A stretch of 34,773 nucleotides of DNA from a bacterium (GTDB taxonomy: Bacteria; Fibrobacterota; Fibrobacteria; UBA11236). The stretch is from the NCBI GenBank assembly GCA_900299345.1, contig OMJM01000049.1, positions 1 to 34,773 of the forward strand. Direction: 5' to 3'. A model generated the notes under the pieces. That model ran no database searches, was not told the DNA's origin, and saw only the letters and a program-made list of their open reading frames with translations. Positions 2,426 to 14,306 of this stretch are shown here, piece after piece; position 1 is the stretch's first letter, and every line of letters starts with the position of its first letter. Made by a program: the position numbers and the translations under genes.

Positions 2426-3794
2426 ACTGCAACCCACCGTCGTACTGAACATCGTCGGTCTTACACCGTCGCTGATCGGCGAGCACACTCCCAAGCTCAA
2501 AGCCTTCCGCAACCGCAATGCCTGTGCGCGATTGCAGGAACCGTTTCCAGCCGTGACGTGCACGAGTCAGGCCACCATGCTCACGGGGAAGCTCCCACAA
2601 GAACACGGCATCGTGGGCAACGGTTGGTACTTCAAGGATCTCGCCGAAGTCGGCTTTTGGAAACAAAGCAACTCACTGATTCAGGGTGAGAAGATTTACG
2701 ACACCCTGAAGAGCCGTCCCGGATTCACATGCGCCAAACTGTTCTGGTGGTACAACATGTATTCCGGGGCGGACTGGTCCGTGACGCCGCGACCGCATTA
2801 TCCTGCTGACGGCCGCAAGGTATTCGATGTTTACACGCATCCCATGGTTCTGCACGATCCGCTGGTAAAGGACTTGGGACCATTTCCCTTCCCCGCTTTC
2901 TGGGGCCCGATGGCAGGCATCGGCTCTTCGGAATGGATTGCTGCCTGCGCCAAGTGGACGCACGAGAATAAGCATCCGACGCTTTCGCTGGTGTACCTTC
3001 CGCATCTCGATTATTGTCTCCAAAAATTCGGACCCGGTGCGCCGGAAATTCCCGCGGAGCTGCAACGCATTGACACTGTGGCTGGAGACTTGATCGAATA
3101 CTTCGAGAAGCAGAACGTCAAAGTGCTGGTGGTGTCGGAATATGGAATCACGAAAGTCTCACGGCATACCGATCCGAACCGCATTTTGCGTCGGGCCGGA
3201 TTGCTCGAAGTGCGGCCCAGCGTGACGTGGGAATTATTGGACGCCGGAGCAAGCCGCGCCTTCGCGGTCTCGGATCACCAGATTTGCCACATCTACGTGC
3301 ATGACAAATCCAAATTGAATCAGGTCGTCTCGTTGTTCGAAAAGGAACCGGGCACCCGCCAGGTGATTCACGGCGAGGAACGCAAAAAGTACGGACTCGA
3401 TCACGATCGGGCCGGCGATGTGATTCTGATGGCCGAACCGGACAACTGGTACACCTACTATTTCTGGGAAGACGACAAACTCGCGCCCGATTTCGCGCGA
3501 TGCGTGGAAATCCATCGCAAGCCAGGTTACGATCCCGTGGAACTGTTCATGGATCCCAAGAATCCTTTCGTCAAGGGCAAGGCGGCGATGGCCTTGCTCA
3601 AGAAGAAGCTGGGATTCCGTTATTACATGGATGTGATTCCACTCGATGCATCTCTCATCAAAGGTTCACACGGAACTCCTGCCGACGATCCGGCCGAAGC
3701 TCCGTTGTTGATCTGCGACGCATCTTTGGTCAATGCGACCTCGATGCCGATGACTGCGGTGCGCGATGTGATTGCCAGAGCTGTGACCGGATAA
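2418..3794 (+). CDS. eboF: EboF, alkaline-phosphatase-superfamily (nucleotide pyrophosphatase/phosphodiesterase-like) protein
   Basis: This is a 458-residue member of the type I phosphodiesterase/nucleotide pyrophosphatase branch of the alkaline phosphatase superfamily. The nucleophile region is PAVTCTSQATMLTG (residues 44-57, probable Thr47), followed by the typical PQEHGIVGNGW. Later metal-ligand regions are YLPHLDY, VVSEYGITKVSRH and KGSHGTPADD. The residue corresponding to the first metal-binding Asp of many relatives is Asn11 in VVLNIVGLTP, a change worth checking. No signal peptide is visible. Its ATG lies inside the end of eboE (8-base overlap), and it ends 5 bases before rnhA. Position directly after eboE in an ebo cluster supports EboF. 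Its substrate is not known, though a phosphoester or pyrophosphate on a carrier or metabolite would fit the family. Confidence 0.82.
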   Translation: MAELQPTVVLNIVGLTPSLIGEHTPKLKAFRNRNACARLQEPFPAVTCTSQATMLTGKLPQEHGIVGNGWYFKDLAEVGFWKQSNSLIQGEKIYDTLKSRPGFTCAKLFWWYNMYSGADWSVTPRPHYPADGRKVFDVYTHPMVLHDPLVKDLGPFPFPAFWGPMAGIGSSEWIAACAKWTHENKHPTLSLVYLPHLDYCLQKFGPGAPEIPAELQRIDTVAGDLIEYFEKQNVKVLVVSEYGITKVSRHTDPNRILRRAGLLEVRPSVTWELLDAGASRAFAVSDHQICHIYVHDKSKLNQVVSLFEKEPGTRQVIHGEERKKYGLDHDRAGDVILMAEPDNWYTYYFWEDDKLAPDFARCVEIHRKPGYDPVELFMDPKNPFVKGKAAMALLKKKLGFRYYMDVIPLDASLIKGSHGTPADDPAEAPLLICDASLVNATSMPMTAVRDVIARAVTG

Positions 3795-10069: not shown

Positions 10070-10151
10070 TCTTCACGCTACTTGTGTGCTCAAAAATTGA
10101 GCGTGTTCCCGCGTAATGGCTAGTTTTCCTCCCTTTCAAATAAGACCAACC

Positions 10152-13100
10152 ATGTTCCGCCCCATATCCCCCGATGTCACCTTCCCCAGCCTCGAAGAGG
10201 CGATCCTCGCACTTTGGGAAAAGGACGATGCCTTCAAGCAAAGCGTCGCGCGGCGGCCGGCGGAAAAAACCTTTGTCTTCAACGACGGCCCCCCGTTTGC
10301 CACCGGCCTCCCGCACTACGGCCACCTCCTGGCCGGAACGATCAAGGACATCGTCCCCCGCTACTGGACCATGAAGGGATACCGGGTCGAGCGGCGTTTC
10401 GGTTGGGACTGCCATGGCCTGCCCATCGAGAACATCATCCAGGATCAGCTCGGCCTGCACACCGTCCGCGACATTCAGAACCACGGCGTGGGCAAGTTCA
10501 ACGAAGCCTGCCGCGCGGGCGTGCTGAAGTACACCAAGGAATGGCGCAAGACCGTCTCGCGCATGGGCCGCTGGGTCGATTTCGACAACGAATACAAGAC
10601 CATGGACCTCTTCTTCATGGAGACGGTGTGGTGGGTGTTCAAGCAATGCTTCGACAAGGGACTGATCTATCAGGGCTGGCGCATTCAGCCGTACAGCCCC
10701 GCGCTGGCCACACCGCTCAGCAACTTCGAAGTCAATCAGGGCTACCGCATGCGGCAGGATCCCTCCGTAACCTTGAGCTTCCCGCTCGAGGGATCCGACG
10801 AAGCGCTGCTGGTGTGGACCACCACGCCGTGGACCCTGCCCAGCAACCTCGCCATCGCCCTCAAGGAGGATCTCGAGTACGCGCTGGTCGCGCACGAGGG
10901 AGCGAAATACTGGATCGCGGAATCGCGGCGGATGGCTTACTTCGGCGAAGGATCGGTGGTGCTGGATCGCGTGCTTGGCAAGGCGCTGGCCGGACGGCGG
11001 TACAAGCCTCTGTTCGAGTTTGCGCCTTACATGACCGAAAAGCAATACTCCGTGCTGCTGGCGGATTTCGTCAGCGACTCTGACGGCACGGGCGCGGTGC
11101 ACATAGCGCCGAGTTTCGGCGAAGAAGATTTTCAGCTCGGCAAGCAGGAAGGACTGGGCCTGTGGGATCCGCTGGATGCCGAGGGCAAGTTCACCCATTT
11201 GGTTCCCGAATGGATTGGTATTGGAGCCAAGGACGCAGACAAGTCCATCCTCCACCACCTCAAGGCCGAAGGCCGTGTGTTCAAGCACGAAACCTTCGAG
11301 CACAGCTACCCGCATTGCTGGCGCACCGACGTTCCGTTGCTGTACCGCGCGCAGAAGAACTGGTTCCTCGCGCTGGACAAGGAAATCACGTCCCAAGATG
11401 GTGTGACGAAAACTTTGAAACAATGGATGATCGATTCCAACCAGCAGATCCGCTGGGTGCCGGAGCACATCCGCGACGGGCGTTTCGGAAAATGGCTGGA
11501 AGGCGCGCGCGACTGGAACCTCTCCCGCAACCGCTTCTGGGGAACTTGTATTCCGGTGTGGATCAACGAAGACAACGACATGCTGTGTGTCGGAAGCCGC
11601 GAAGAGTTGGAAAAACTTTCCGGCATCAAGGTGGATGACCTGCACAAGCACATCGTCGATTCCATCGCGATCAAAAAAGACGGCAAGGAATATCGCCGCA
11701 CGCCCGAAGTGCTGGACTGCTGGTTCGAATCAGGTTCCATGCCGTACGCGCAGAGCCATTACCCGTTCGAGAACCGCGCCGTATTCGACGCCTCCTTCCC
11801 GGCCGACTTCATCGCTGAGGGACTCGATCAGACGCGCGGCTGGTTCTATACGCTCACCGTGTTGTCTGCGGCGCTGTTCCAGAAGCCCGCCATGAAGAAC
11901 GTGATTGTGAACGGCATCATTCTGGCCGAGGACGGCCAGAAGATGAGCAAGCGTTTGCGCAACTACCCGGATCCGAACGATCTCATCGACCGCGTGGGCG
12001 CGGACGCCATCCGCCTGTTCATGATCGACTCCGCCGCCGTGAAAGCCGAGGAACTCAAATTCTCCGAGACCGGCGTGCGCAACATCGTGCGCGCCGTGCT
12101 GCTTCCGCTGTGGAATTCGGTGTCACTGTTCACGACCTATGCGAATGCCGACGCCTCCAAAGGCCAATTGACCTGGAAACCGGGACAGAATCTGGTTTCG
12201 GAAAATGAACTCGACCGTTGGATTCTTTCCGATCTACAGGCGTTGCTGAAGCGCGTGTCGGTGGAAATGGAAAACTACCGGCTCTACAACGTGGTGCCGG
12301 CGCTGGTGGAATTCGTGGACGATCTCACCAACTGGTACATCCGCCGCTCGCGTCGACGCTTCTGGAAATCGGAAAACGATCGGGACAAGAACGGGGCCTA
12401 TGCCACGCTGTATCGCGTACTGGTGGATTTCTCCAAAGCCTTGGCTCCTTTCCTGCCGTTCATGGCGGAGGAGATTTATCAGATCCTCGTGCGTGAACCT
12501 TCCTCCGTCGGGGCGGACGGCCGTCCGCCCGTACAGTCCGTGCATCATTGCGATTATCCGGTGTTCGATCCGGCCTTGTACGACGAAGCGTTGAACGGGA
12601 AAATGGCATTGGCACGTCAGGCTGTGAATCTGGGTCGCGCCTTGCGCGCCGAGCGGAATATCAAGAACCGCCAACCGTTGCGCCAACTCAAGATTGTGGT
12701 GCGTGGCGAAGAGCAAGCCGCGTGGCTGCGCTCGCTTGAGGATTTGATCCGCGACGAACTCAACGTCAAGGAAGTCGAAATTTCGCTGGACGAGTCCTCC
12801 TTTGTCACCTACAAAGCCAAGGCCAATTTCAAATCCCTGGGCGCGAAGCTCGGCAAGAACATGAAGGCCGTGGCCGATCAAATCGCCAAACTCGGGCACG
12901 CCGACATCAAATCCATGCTCGAGGGCAAGCCTCTGGTGCTGGGGGAACATTCCCTGTCGGCCGAGGACTTGCAGGTGATCCGCGAGGTGCAGGAAGGACT
13001 GGCTGTCACCGCGACCGCGGAACTGACCGTGGCGCTCGATACCACGGTGGATGAAGCACTGCGGCTGGAGATGCTGGCGCGGGAAACCGTCAGCAGGATC

Positions 13101-13343
13101 CAGAACCTGCGCAAGGAGGCGGATCTGGCCGTCACCGACCGGATCGACGTGCGTTTAAATGATGTGACACCCCTGTTGCGCAAAGCTTTGGAAGCCCATC
13201 TTTCATATATTTCCGCGGAAGTTTTGGCCGTTTCCCTCGGCTTCGACACGGCGGGTGAGGCACCCGTTTCCGGCGAGGTGGAAGTGGACGGCGAACGGGG
13301 TCGTATATTCATCGCGATCAACCCAGGAAAGGACCTGGCATGA
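10152..13343 (+). CDS. ileS: Isoleucine-tRNA ligase, eukaryotic-like (type 2)
   Basis: A 1063-residue isoleucyl-tRNA synthetase that charges tRNA-Ile. The class I signatures are HYGH at residues 55-58 and KMSKR at 597-601. The editing (CP1) domain contains WTTTPWTLPSN. The C-terminal region carries the anticodon-binding helical bundle (LTNWYIRRSRRRFW) and a long tail. HYGH, KMSKR, the N-terminus MFRPISPDVTFPSLEE and the length point to the eukaryotic-like IleS2 class rather than the usual bacterial HIGH/KMSKS form. IleS2 enzymes are known to resist the antibiotic mupirocin. The ATG at 10152 fits the conserved family start; an in-frame ATG at 10116 adds 12 unmatched residues. It overlaps the next gene by 4 bases. 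Confidence 0.95.
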   Translation: MFRPISPDVTFPSLEEAILALWEKDDAFKQSVARRPAEKTFVFNDGPPFATGLPHYGHLLAGTIKDIVPRYWTMKGYRVERRFGWDCHGLPIENIIQDQLGLHTVRDIQNHGVGKFNEACRAGVLKYTKEWRKTVSRMGRWVDFDNEYKTMDLFFMETVWWVFKQCFDKGLIYQGWRIQPYSPALATPLSNFEVNQGYRMRQDPSVTLSFPLEGSDEALLVWTTTPWTLPSNLAIALKEDLEYALVAHEGAKYWIAESRRMAYFGEGSVVLDRVLGKALAGRRYKPLFEFAPYMTEKQYSVLLADFVSDSDGTGAVHIAPSFGEEDFQLGKQEGLGLWDPLDAEGKFTHLVPEWIGIGAKDADKSILHHLKAEGRVFKHETFEHSYPHCWRTDVPLLYRAQKNWFLALDKEITSQDGVTKTLKQWMIDSNQQIRWVPEHIRDGRFGKWLEGARDWNLSRNRFWGTCIPVWINEDNDMLCVGSREELEKLSGIKVDDLHKHIVDSIAIKKDGKEYRRTPEVLDCWFESGSMPYAQSHYPFENRAVFDASFPADFIAEGLDQTRGWFYTLTVLSAALFQKPAMKNVIVNGIILAEDGQKMSKRLRNYPDPNDLIDRVGADAIRLFMIDSAAVKAEELKFSETGVRNIVRAVLLPLWNSVSLFTTYANADASKGQLTWKPGQNLVSENELDRWILSDLQALLKRVSVEMENYRLYNVVPALVEFVDDLTNWYIRRSRRRFWKSENDRDKNGAYATLYRVLVDFSKALAPFLPFMAEEIYQILVREPSSVGADGRPPVQSVHHCDYPVFDPALYDEALNGKMALARQAVNLGRALRAERNIKNRQPLRQLKIVVRGEEQAAWLRSLEDLIRDELNVKEVEISLDESSFVTYKAKANFKSLGAKLGKNMKAVADQIAKLGHADIKSMLEGKPLVLGEHSLSAEDLQVIREVQEGLAVTATAELTVALDTTVDEALRLEMLARETVSRIQNLRKEADLAVTDRIDVRLNDVTPLLRKALEAHLSYISAEVLAVSLGFDTAGEAPVSGEVEVDGERGRIFIAINPGKDLA

Positions 13344-13981
13344 ACAAGGCCAAGAAAAAAGCGGCGGCATCCAAGCCAAAAAGCGTGAAGAAGCCCGCCG
13401 CTAAAAAGCCCGCAGCGAAAGCCAAACCCGCCAAGGCCAAAACCGTTGCCAAGCCTGCGGCAAAAGCCGCGCCTAAGACTGTTGCCATGGCCAAGCCGGC
13501 AATGCGCGCCTTGCCCAAGCCCATTGCCTCCAAGAATCCCAAAGGAAAAGATTCGGTGTCGAAACAAACCTCCAACCGCAGCCGCCTGAACAAGGAAGAG
13601 CTGAAGTTTTTTGAAAAGCTGTTGAACGAGAAGAAAGAGACTTTGATTCAGGAGCTCGACTATCTCGAAGACAACACCATGCGCCTCAACGCCAAGGACG
13701 GCGCGGGCGATTTGTCCAGCCACGCCTACCATCTGGCCGATCACGCCACGGAAACGCAGGATCGCGAGCAGGCCTTTCATCTCGCCAGCCGCGAAGGCCG
13801 GTATCTGAACTATATCGAGGAAGCCTTGGATCGCGTGCGCGCCGGAACCTACGGCTTGTGCAAAAACTGCGGCAAGCTCATTCCGAAGGCGCGCTTGGAA
13901 GCTGTTCCCACGGCCAAGATGTGCATCGACTGCAAGGCCAAACAAGAGCAGGCCATCGAAGCCGAAGCTCCAGCAGCCTGA
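13340..13981 (+). CDS. DksA/TraR-type zinc-finger protein with histone-H1-like N-terminal tail
   Basis: A 213-residue protein in two parts. Residues 1-80 are a Lys/Ala/Pro-rich, disordered, strongly basic tail (KKPAAKKPAAKAKPAKAK) like bacterial histone-H1-type nucleic-acid-binding tails. Residues 82-200 form a DksA/TraR-family module: a helical hairpin with GDLSSHAYHLADHATE at its tip and a C4 zinc finger (Cys174, Cys177, Cys195, Cys198). The tip resembles the YteA/YocK branch rather than E. coli DksA, which has Asp residues needed for RNA polymerase control. A role as regulator of RNA polymerase is inferred. The basic tail could add DNA or RNA binding. The start overlaps the ileS stop (ATGA), so it is probably co-expressed with ileS. 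Confidence 0.85.
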   Translation: MNKAKKKAAASKPKSVKKPAAKKPAAKAKPAKAKTVAKPAAKAAPKTVAMAKPAMRALPKPIASKNPKGKDSVSKQTSNRSRLNKEELKFFEKLLNEKKETLIQELDYLEDNTMRLNAKDGAGDLSSHAYHLADHATETQDREQAFHLASREGRYLNYIEEALDRVRAGTYGLCKNCGKLIPKARLEAVPTAKMCIDCKAKQEQAIEAEAPAA

Positions 13982-14001: not shown

Positions 14002-14223
14002 TTATTTGGATTTTGATTTACAGTCGCGGTGCGCGGCCTTGGCCTTTTGATGCGCTTCGCGGCTGCAATCCTTGCGCTCCTTTTTATCCGTCTTTTCCTT
14101 GCACACCGCCATGTCCGCCTTGAAGGTGTCCCGGACGGCTTTCATGCAATCGCCGCGCTCGGAAGCCATCGCAGCAGGAGCCAACAAGGCCGATGAAAGA
14201 ATCAAGGTTGCCAGAAATTTCAT
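14002..14223 (-). CDS. Small secreted Cys/Lys-rich protein, unknown function
   Basis: A 73-residue protein with a clear signal peptide (MKFLATLILSSALLAPAAMA, cleavage near residue 20-21). The mature part is about 52 residues, highly charged, with four cysteines (DCMKAV, AVCKEK, DCSREA, DCKSK) at roughly even spacing and a lysine-rich end (KSKSK). The ATG at 14223 has a strong GGAGG site about 9 bases upstream and places the signal peptide at the start; ten extra residues from further upstream were rejected. The cysteines could form disulfides or bind metal in the periplasm. I do not recognise a family. It is convergent with the zinc-finger gene (20 bases apart). Confidence 0.7.
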   Translation of the reverse strand: MKFLATLILSSALLAPAAMASERGDCMKAVRDTFKADMAVCKEKTDKKERKDCSREAHQKAKAAHRDCKSKSK

Positions 14224-14306
14224 GATGCATCCTCCCCGCATCCCGCGGCACACGCCGGAATGATGCGCGACGGGGAAGTTACAAAACAGGGGAGGCCGAA
14301 GCCCAC

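Follow-up and report, generated by a model that had tools for sequence, protein, structure and literature searches.

A DksA-like zinc-finger protein with a histone-H1-like N-terminal tail encoded next to ileS in a Fibrobacterota genome

The gene and its surroundings

The window, a stretch of 34,773 nucleotides from a bacterium of the Fibrobacterota, carries downstream of ileS a gene for a protein in which a Lys/Ala/Pro-rich amino-terminal tail precedes a DksA-like helical hairpin and zinc finger. The elements of the locus are the following:

10116-13343, + strand: ileS, isoleucyl-tRNA synthetase, upstream gene with ATGA overlap (TIGR00392, 900.8 bits; open reading frame)
13330-13333, + strand: Shine-Dalgarno sequence AGGA, 6 nt before the ATG (from the sequence; a comparable stretch precedes the ATG of the congener G002)
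13340-13981, + strand: DksA-like zinc-finger protein with a basic N-terminal tail, 213 residues (open reading frame, PF01258, model, PDB comparison)
13340-13579, + strand: Lys/Ala/Pro-rich H1-like tail, residues 1-80, net charge +24, without predicted secondary structure (sequence, AlphaFold2)
13592-13702, + strand: hairpin helix 1, residues 85-121 (AlphaFold2 model)
13730-13747, + strand: hairpin tip HLADHA, residues 131-136, equivalent to the D71-A76 region of E. coli DksA (alignment)
13733-13843, + strand: hairpin helix 2, residues 132-168 (AlphaFold2 model)
13844-13951, + strand: C4 zinc finger PF01258, residues 169-204, with Cys 174, 177, 195 and 198 (profile match, alignment)

The open reading frame at 13340-13981 is a genuine gene, the ATG of which overlaps the stop codon of ileS as ATGA. 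Sequence, PF01258 profile and structural model agree with the anatomy given in the original prediction, namely an 80-residue Lys/Ala/Pro tail ahead of a DksA-type hairpin and a C4 finger. A start downstream of the tail is unlikely, since the Shine-Dalgarno sequence and the ATG are common to G002; a shorter isoform arising from an internal start is possible. Between the gene and fmt lies a further reading frame of 83 residues on the opposite strand (14002-14253, −), rich in Lys, Cys and Asp, which may encode a secretion signal, has a related sequence in the same position in G002 and yielded no match in Pfam or NCBIfam.

An ileS gene was found upstream in all ten genomes of the window's family and in the single genomes read from two further families (f2 and f13; families are given by our own labels), whereas no ileS was seen in the 30 genomes of the Fibrobacter-containing family f3 or in any other family read, over about 1.5 to 4.5 kb of upstream sequence that was partly cut by contig ends. 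A scan of genome contigs, which kept 80 of 99 confirmed relatives, included seven loci not labelled Fibrobacterota (one Calditrichaeota, two LCP-89, one 'Acetofilamentum' and three other bacteria), all of them likewise with ileS upstream. Their next long downstream reading frame was lspA in five (L041, L044, L045, L047 and L048) and a protein with a pseudouridine-synthase domain in L081 and L107; in the phylum reached via L107 four of five genomes gave a match. Linkage to ileS is an ancient arrangement of genes. Of the 11 genomes in the relatives set that show this linkage, one has the ATGA overlap and the other ten have gaps of 19-84 nt (with the start chosen by hand in two). An amino-acid supply circuit through ileS coupling is therefore poorly supported. 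Rfam gave no match to the window at gathering score, and a T-box or other known RNA element was accordingly rejected. The translational coupling originally predicted thus stands as an overlap in the window, while the link to amino-acid supply drawn from it has little support.

Core fold, family placement and polymerase-facing residues

Scanning Pfam at E 0.001 yielded PF01258 (zf-dskA_traR) as the sole match, with 55.3 bits against a gathering cut-off of 24.9 over residues 169-204, and no CarD_CdnL_TRCF domain was found in the protein. The four zinc ligands are present with the spacing CxxC-17-CxxC. No other PF01258 match turned up in the genome, which also gave one RelA/SpoT match.

The AlphaFold2 model, built on a 52-row alignment, predicted the two long helices and the finger region mostly with high confidence, the residues 121-130 between the helices having a mean pLDDT of 57. 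Foldseek placed P. aeruginosa DksA2 (4ijj, E 5e-07) and E. coli DksA (1tjl, E 4.8e-06) at the top ranks. VIA-align gave Z 13.5 over 126 residues for 1tjl and 13.4 over 122 residues for 4ijj, values close to the limit of about 13 under which helical folds can share merely a common arrangement. Other DksA chains (13.0 and 12.7) came next, then Chlamydia Dks (10.3), and no other helical protein exceeded 9.9; rows below rank 5 were mostly generic helical hairpins and were left out. Because of this proximity to the limit, the sequence matches obtained with phmmer matter besides the fold (4ijj, E 3.2e-10; 1tjl, E 5.9e-09). The predicted fold comprises the long hairpin and finger region of DksA proper.

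On the NCBIfam profiles the protein scored below the cut-offs of the DksA equivalogs TIGR02420 and NF033459 (72.2 against 115.5; 71.5 against 105), and the best match was the YteA family TIGR02890 with 96.1 bits over residues 88-204, itself below the cut-off of 134.4. The alignment to 1tjl was ungapped over E. coli residues 72-143, and residue equivalents were counted in the 52-row alignment. The tip retains the equivalents of D74 (Asp in 49/52 rows) and A76 (Ala in 45/52) and exhibits His in place of D71 (47/52), so that the full DxxDxA motif is absent. The equivalents of R91 and K139 are Arg and Lys in every row. Neither of the two residues of ppGpp site 2 in DksA proper was found, as the K98 equivalent is Lys in 0/52 rows (Tyr in 32, Gln in 15, other residues in 5; Tyr158 in the window protein) and the R129 equivalent is Val in 52/52 (Val189). 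Based on the His at D71, the replaced K98 and R129 and the NCBIfam ranking of YteA ahead of DksA, we file the protein as a YteA-like member of the DksA/TraR superfamily and not as DksA proper.

For E. coli DksA, passages of PMC7676912 describe that K98A or R129A variants retain RNA polymerase binding but fail to sustain ppGpp binding at site 2. PMC9239242 describes both tip Asp residues as essential for DksA function and suggests that a TraR homolog may be less active because it lacks the first of them. Taken together with the residue equivalents, these reports make RNA polymerase binding by the core plausible, suggest that the hairpin tip is not fully canonical and render a DksA-type ppGpp pocket unlikely. 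The polymerase interface of the original prediction hence holds for the D74 and A76 equivalents and is weakened at D71, and the ppGpp-pocket residues K98 and R129 are replaced.

In the families f7-f12, only one of the four zinc cysteines is retained (C-T-S-G) in all 12 proteins aligned (L148, L149, L151-L157, L160-L162), and based on the loss of the other three their finger is probably metal-free. The DksA-like proteins of family f4 (L014, L015) contain a 10-residue insertion in the finger with Cys-Cys-Cys-His ligands.

We also looked up the omega subunit (PF01192) with regard to ppGpp site 1. It gave no match in the window's genome, and none of 61 genomes (this one and 60 relatives) scored over the cut-off; 57 of the 61 exhibited only a weak match (E up to 1), compared to matches in all 14 control genomes. 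Omega appears to be very divergent or missing in the class.

Composition and distribution of the tail

The 80 tail residues comprise 23 Lys, 2 Arg, a single acidic and no aromatic residue, with 68% being Lys, Ala or Pro. The model shows them as unstructured, with block pLDDT values of 50-73, and the tail is H1-like in the sense of being Lys/Ala/Pro-rich, almost devoid of acidic or aromatic residues and predicted to be disordered. Its best 50-residue stretch with at least 10 Lys contains 42 Lys, Ala or Pro residues, whereas 60 first-order Markov simulations of the window gave at most 20, indicating that the composition is not due to chance. Lysine is encoded by a mixture of AAG (12) and AAA (11), and no tandem repeats were found at 13300-13700, which argues against simple slippage. 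A sequencing or slippage artefact was rejected as origin of the tail on these grounds and on the strongly basic tails in all four congeneric genomes.

Such a composition is not a genome-wide habit, as it was found in just two of 941 open frames sampled over 208,776 bases of the genome, including the window, one being the DksA-like gene and the other a frame selected by pattern. A search of the genome's proteins (E up to 10) using the tail as query returned only the tail itself. A K-x-A DNA pattern gave six matches in the genome, compared to eight when reversed as a control; of the six, two lie within basic segments of other reading frames, one on contig C91 and one in the 3'-terminal part of a C56 frame. 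The C91 locus (L188, about 2992-3369, −) encodes a second Lys/Ala/Pro-rich protein, whose short amino-terminal portion is acidic and whose long carboxy-terminal portion is basic and H1-like.

Comparing the window with G002, the same residue was encoded by 43 of 75 aligned tail codons and by 119 of 131 core codons. NG86 estimates were dN 0.33 and dS 1.9 for the tail and dN 0.05 and dS 1.1 for the core, with dS near saturation; YN00 returned no value for the tail. The tail net charge stays at +23 to +39 in 4/4 genomes of the genus, with one or two acidic residues. Thus, the tail sequence evolves fast while its charge is kept within the genus.

The protein was matched in 61/61 genomes of the relatives search and its core in 160 of 167 genomes of the phylum, for 58 of which the amino terminus was read; the survey of tails covered Fibrobacterota. 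For G002, G003 and G053 we took a later ATG as the start in place of the first one. An amino-terminal extension was present in all ten family genomes searched, and in five it was strongly basic, defined as at least 40 residues with a net charge of at least +20. These five comprise 4/4 genomes of the window's genus and 1/6 of the sister genus, so that the condition under which the original prediction was to fall, a tail missing from every close relative, does not hold. The other five sister-genus tails were 45-54 residues long with a net charge of only +4 or +5. Farther away, strongly basic tails were observed in f5 (2/2, with the G054 frame open at the contig end) and f12 (1/2; G099 likewise runs off its contig); there were none in f3 (0/30), f2 (0/1), f4 (0/2), f7 (0/4), f8 (0/2), f9 (0/2), f10 (0/1), f11 (0/1) and f13 (0/1). 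Less strongly basic extensions are found in f9 (59 residues, +13; 30 residues, +12) and f10 (48 residues, +19).

Extensions of at least 40 residues are absent from f2 (1/1), f4 (2/2) and 28 of 30 f3 genomes, a count that includes G055 as tail-less, the state of which cannot be judged because its frame meets the contig end with 21 in-frame Lys/Pro-rich residues before the chosen ATG. The two f3 exceptions are G109, probably an artefact of start choice, and G040 (L144), where a Lys/Glu-rich extension of 63 residues and net charge +11 differs from the rest of f3 read. Overall, extensions among the relatives span 0-183 residues with widely variable charge, and the core is 80-89% identical to the window protein in the eight family rows aligned: tail length and charge vary by lineage and the core is conserved.

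Proposed mechanism and comparison with known systems

We tentatively read the protein as a secondary-channel factor with a disordered tail that binds nucleic acid nonspecifically, in parallel to myxobacterial CarD, a reading to which we assign slightly less than even confidence. As the only DksA/TraR-superfamily protein detected in the genome, it would insert its hairpin into the RNA polymerase secondary channel, with the tip residues D134 and A136 near the active site and the C4 finger at the rim, as judged from fold and residues. By analogy to the E. coli mutants it would act without a DksA-type ppGpp pocket, the two decisive residues being Tyr158 and Val189. The polycationic tail would leave the hairpin base, bind DNA or RNA and hold the factor near the nucleoid and the transcribing polymerase, thereby raising its local concentration and not conferring sequence specificity. 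Absence of extensions of at least 40 residues from f2, f4 and 28/30 f3 genomes indicates that the core works without the tail. The mechanism originally predicted, in which the tail places a secondary-channel regulator on nucleic acid, is partly supported. A broader scenario, in which Fibrobacterota convergently with CarD evolved a nucleoid-tethered, ppGpp-blind secondary-channel factor whose reach on the nucleoid depends on a fast-evolving H1-like tail that was gained or lost several times, is speculative and on balance doubtful.

Several observations weigh against our reading of a secondary-channel factor with a nucleic-acid-binding tail, namely the His in place of D71, the Z values near 13 for a helical hairpin, the weak charge of 5/6 sister-genus tails and the missing tails in f2, f4 and most of f3. 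The last two would also fit a tail that is a loosely constrained disordered appendage, serving solubility or expression or being mere filler, with only the core being of importance. The wide variation in extension length and charge next to a well-conserved core and the nearly charge-balanced sister-genus tails argue for such an appendage; the consistently strong basic charge with one or two acidic residues throughout the genus, the recurrence of strongly basic tails in f5 and f12 and the rarity of the composition among the open frames sampled argue against it, and we consider it rather unlikely. Should the protein have left the secondary channel altogether, with finger and tail serving another nucleic-acid role, the replaced D71, K98 and R129 and the scores below the NCBIfam DksA cut-offs would be explained, whereas the retained D74, A76, R91 and K139 equivalents, the four zinc cysteines and the full-length DksA-type fold would not be expected, making such a departure very improbable.

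Alternatively, the tail might bind polyphosphate or another polyanion and couple the regulator to starvation via polyphosphate. PPK1 (PF02503) is present in all ten family genomes; the tail contains 9 Lys within 20 residues, the lysine count given for polyphosphate-binding EngA and SrmB in PMC12077175, without having four consecutive Lys; and H1-like AlgP associates with polyphosphate granules, as stated in part of PMC9239181. However, the most Lys/Ala/Pro-rich tails (f5, 2/2 genomes) occur in genomes without a PPK1 match, and PPK1 is also found in tail-less genomes, e.g. G025 and G012, so that we regard polyphosphate as an improbable main target. As a separate observation, the PPK1 match in the window's genome (C65:51554-52117) contains one internal TAA, unlike the matches in three congeners.

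The protein makes two questions accessible. According to the abstract of PMC6970531, DksA-family factors exert their effect through RNA polymerase, to which they bind, and not through binding to promoter DNA; a natural DksA-like factor with a strong amino-terminal polycation allows one to ask whether DNA tethering changes the promoters controlled by such a factor. Likewise, a protein without the site-2 ppGpp residues allows one to ask how the stringent response is wired in a lineage with an Rsh enzyme and no DksA-type ppGpp pocket. A full-text literature search, with subscription papers mostly outside its scope, yielded no published tailed DksA (lysine-rich, H1-like, in Fibrobacter or in ileS context).

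Among known systems, the window protein resembles E. coli DksA (1tjl) and P. aeruginosa DksA2 (4ijj) in the fold of hairpin and finger region, and E. coli DksA also in the D74, A76, R91 and K139 equivalents. It differs from both in the 80-residue basic tail, and from E. coli DksA in having His for D71, Tyr for K98 and Val for R129. The YteA family TIGR02890 is the best NCBIfam match, yet the protein remains below its cut-off; the YteA tip motif presumably resembles the tip of the window protein. Bacillus subtilis YlyA, which we take to be a DksA-like RNA polymerase-binding protein with the gene order ileS-ylyA-lspA, was compared by gene position. Its likeness lies in the gene adjoining ileS, as described in PMC5282499.

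The tails of AlgP and PhaF are likewise Lys/Ala/Pro-rich, but C-terminal and with longer KPAA repeats. To our knowledge, neither protein has a DksA core. For AlgP, sections of PMC9239181 describe the KPAA-rich tail as H1-like and predicted to be disordered, with DNA-binding peptides. The nearest functional parallel to the tailed DksA-like protein is myxobacterial CarD. It joins an RNA polymerase-binding module to a Lys/Ala/Pro-rich DNA-binding region, histone-H1-like in CarDAd (PMC9304148, in excerpt), and, according to PMC4374960, its DNA-binding domain is needed for full activity although the RNA polymerase-binding domain alone has some activity. CarD binds the beta subunit and carries its tail at the carboxy-terminus (PMC4374960), and thus differs from the window protein in its RNA polymerase-binding domain, its target and the position of the tail, which is amino-terminal here. 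The architecture nevertheless has a precedent in CarD, another RNA polymerase-binding family.
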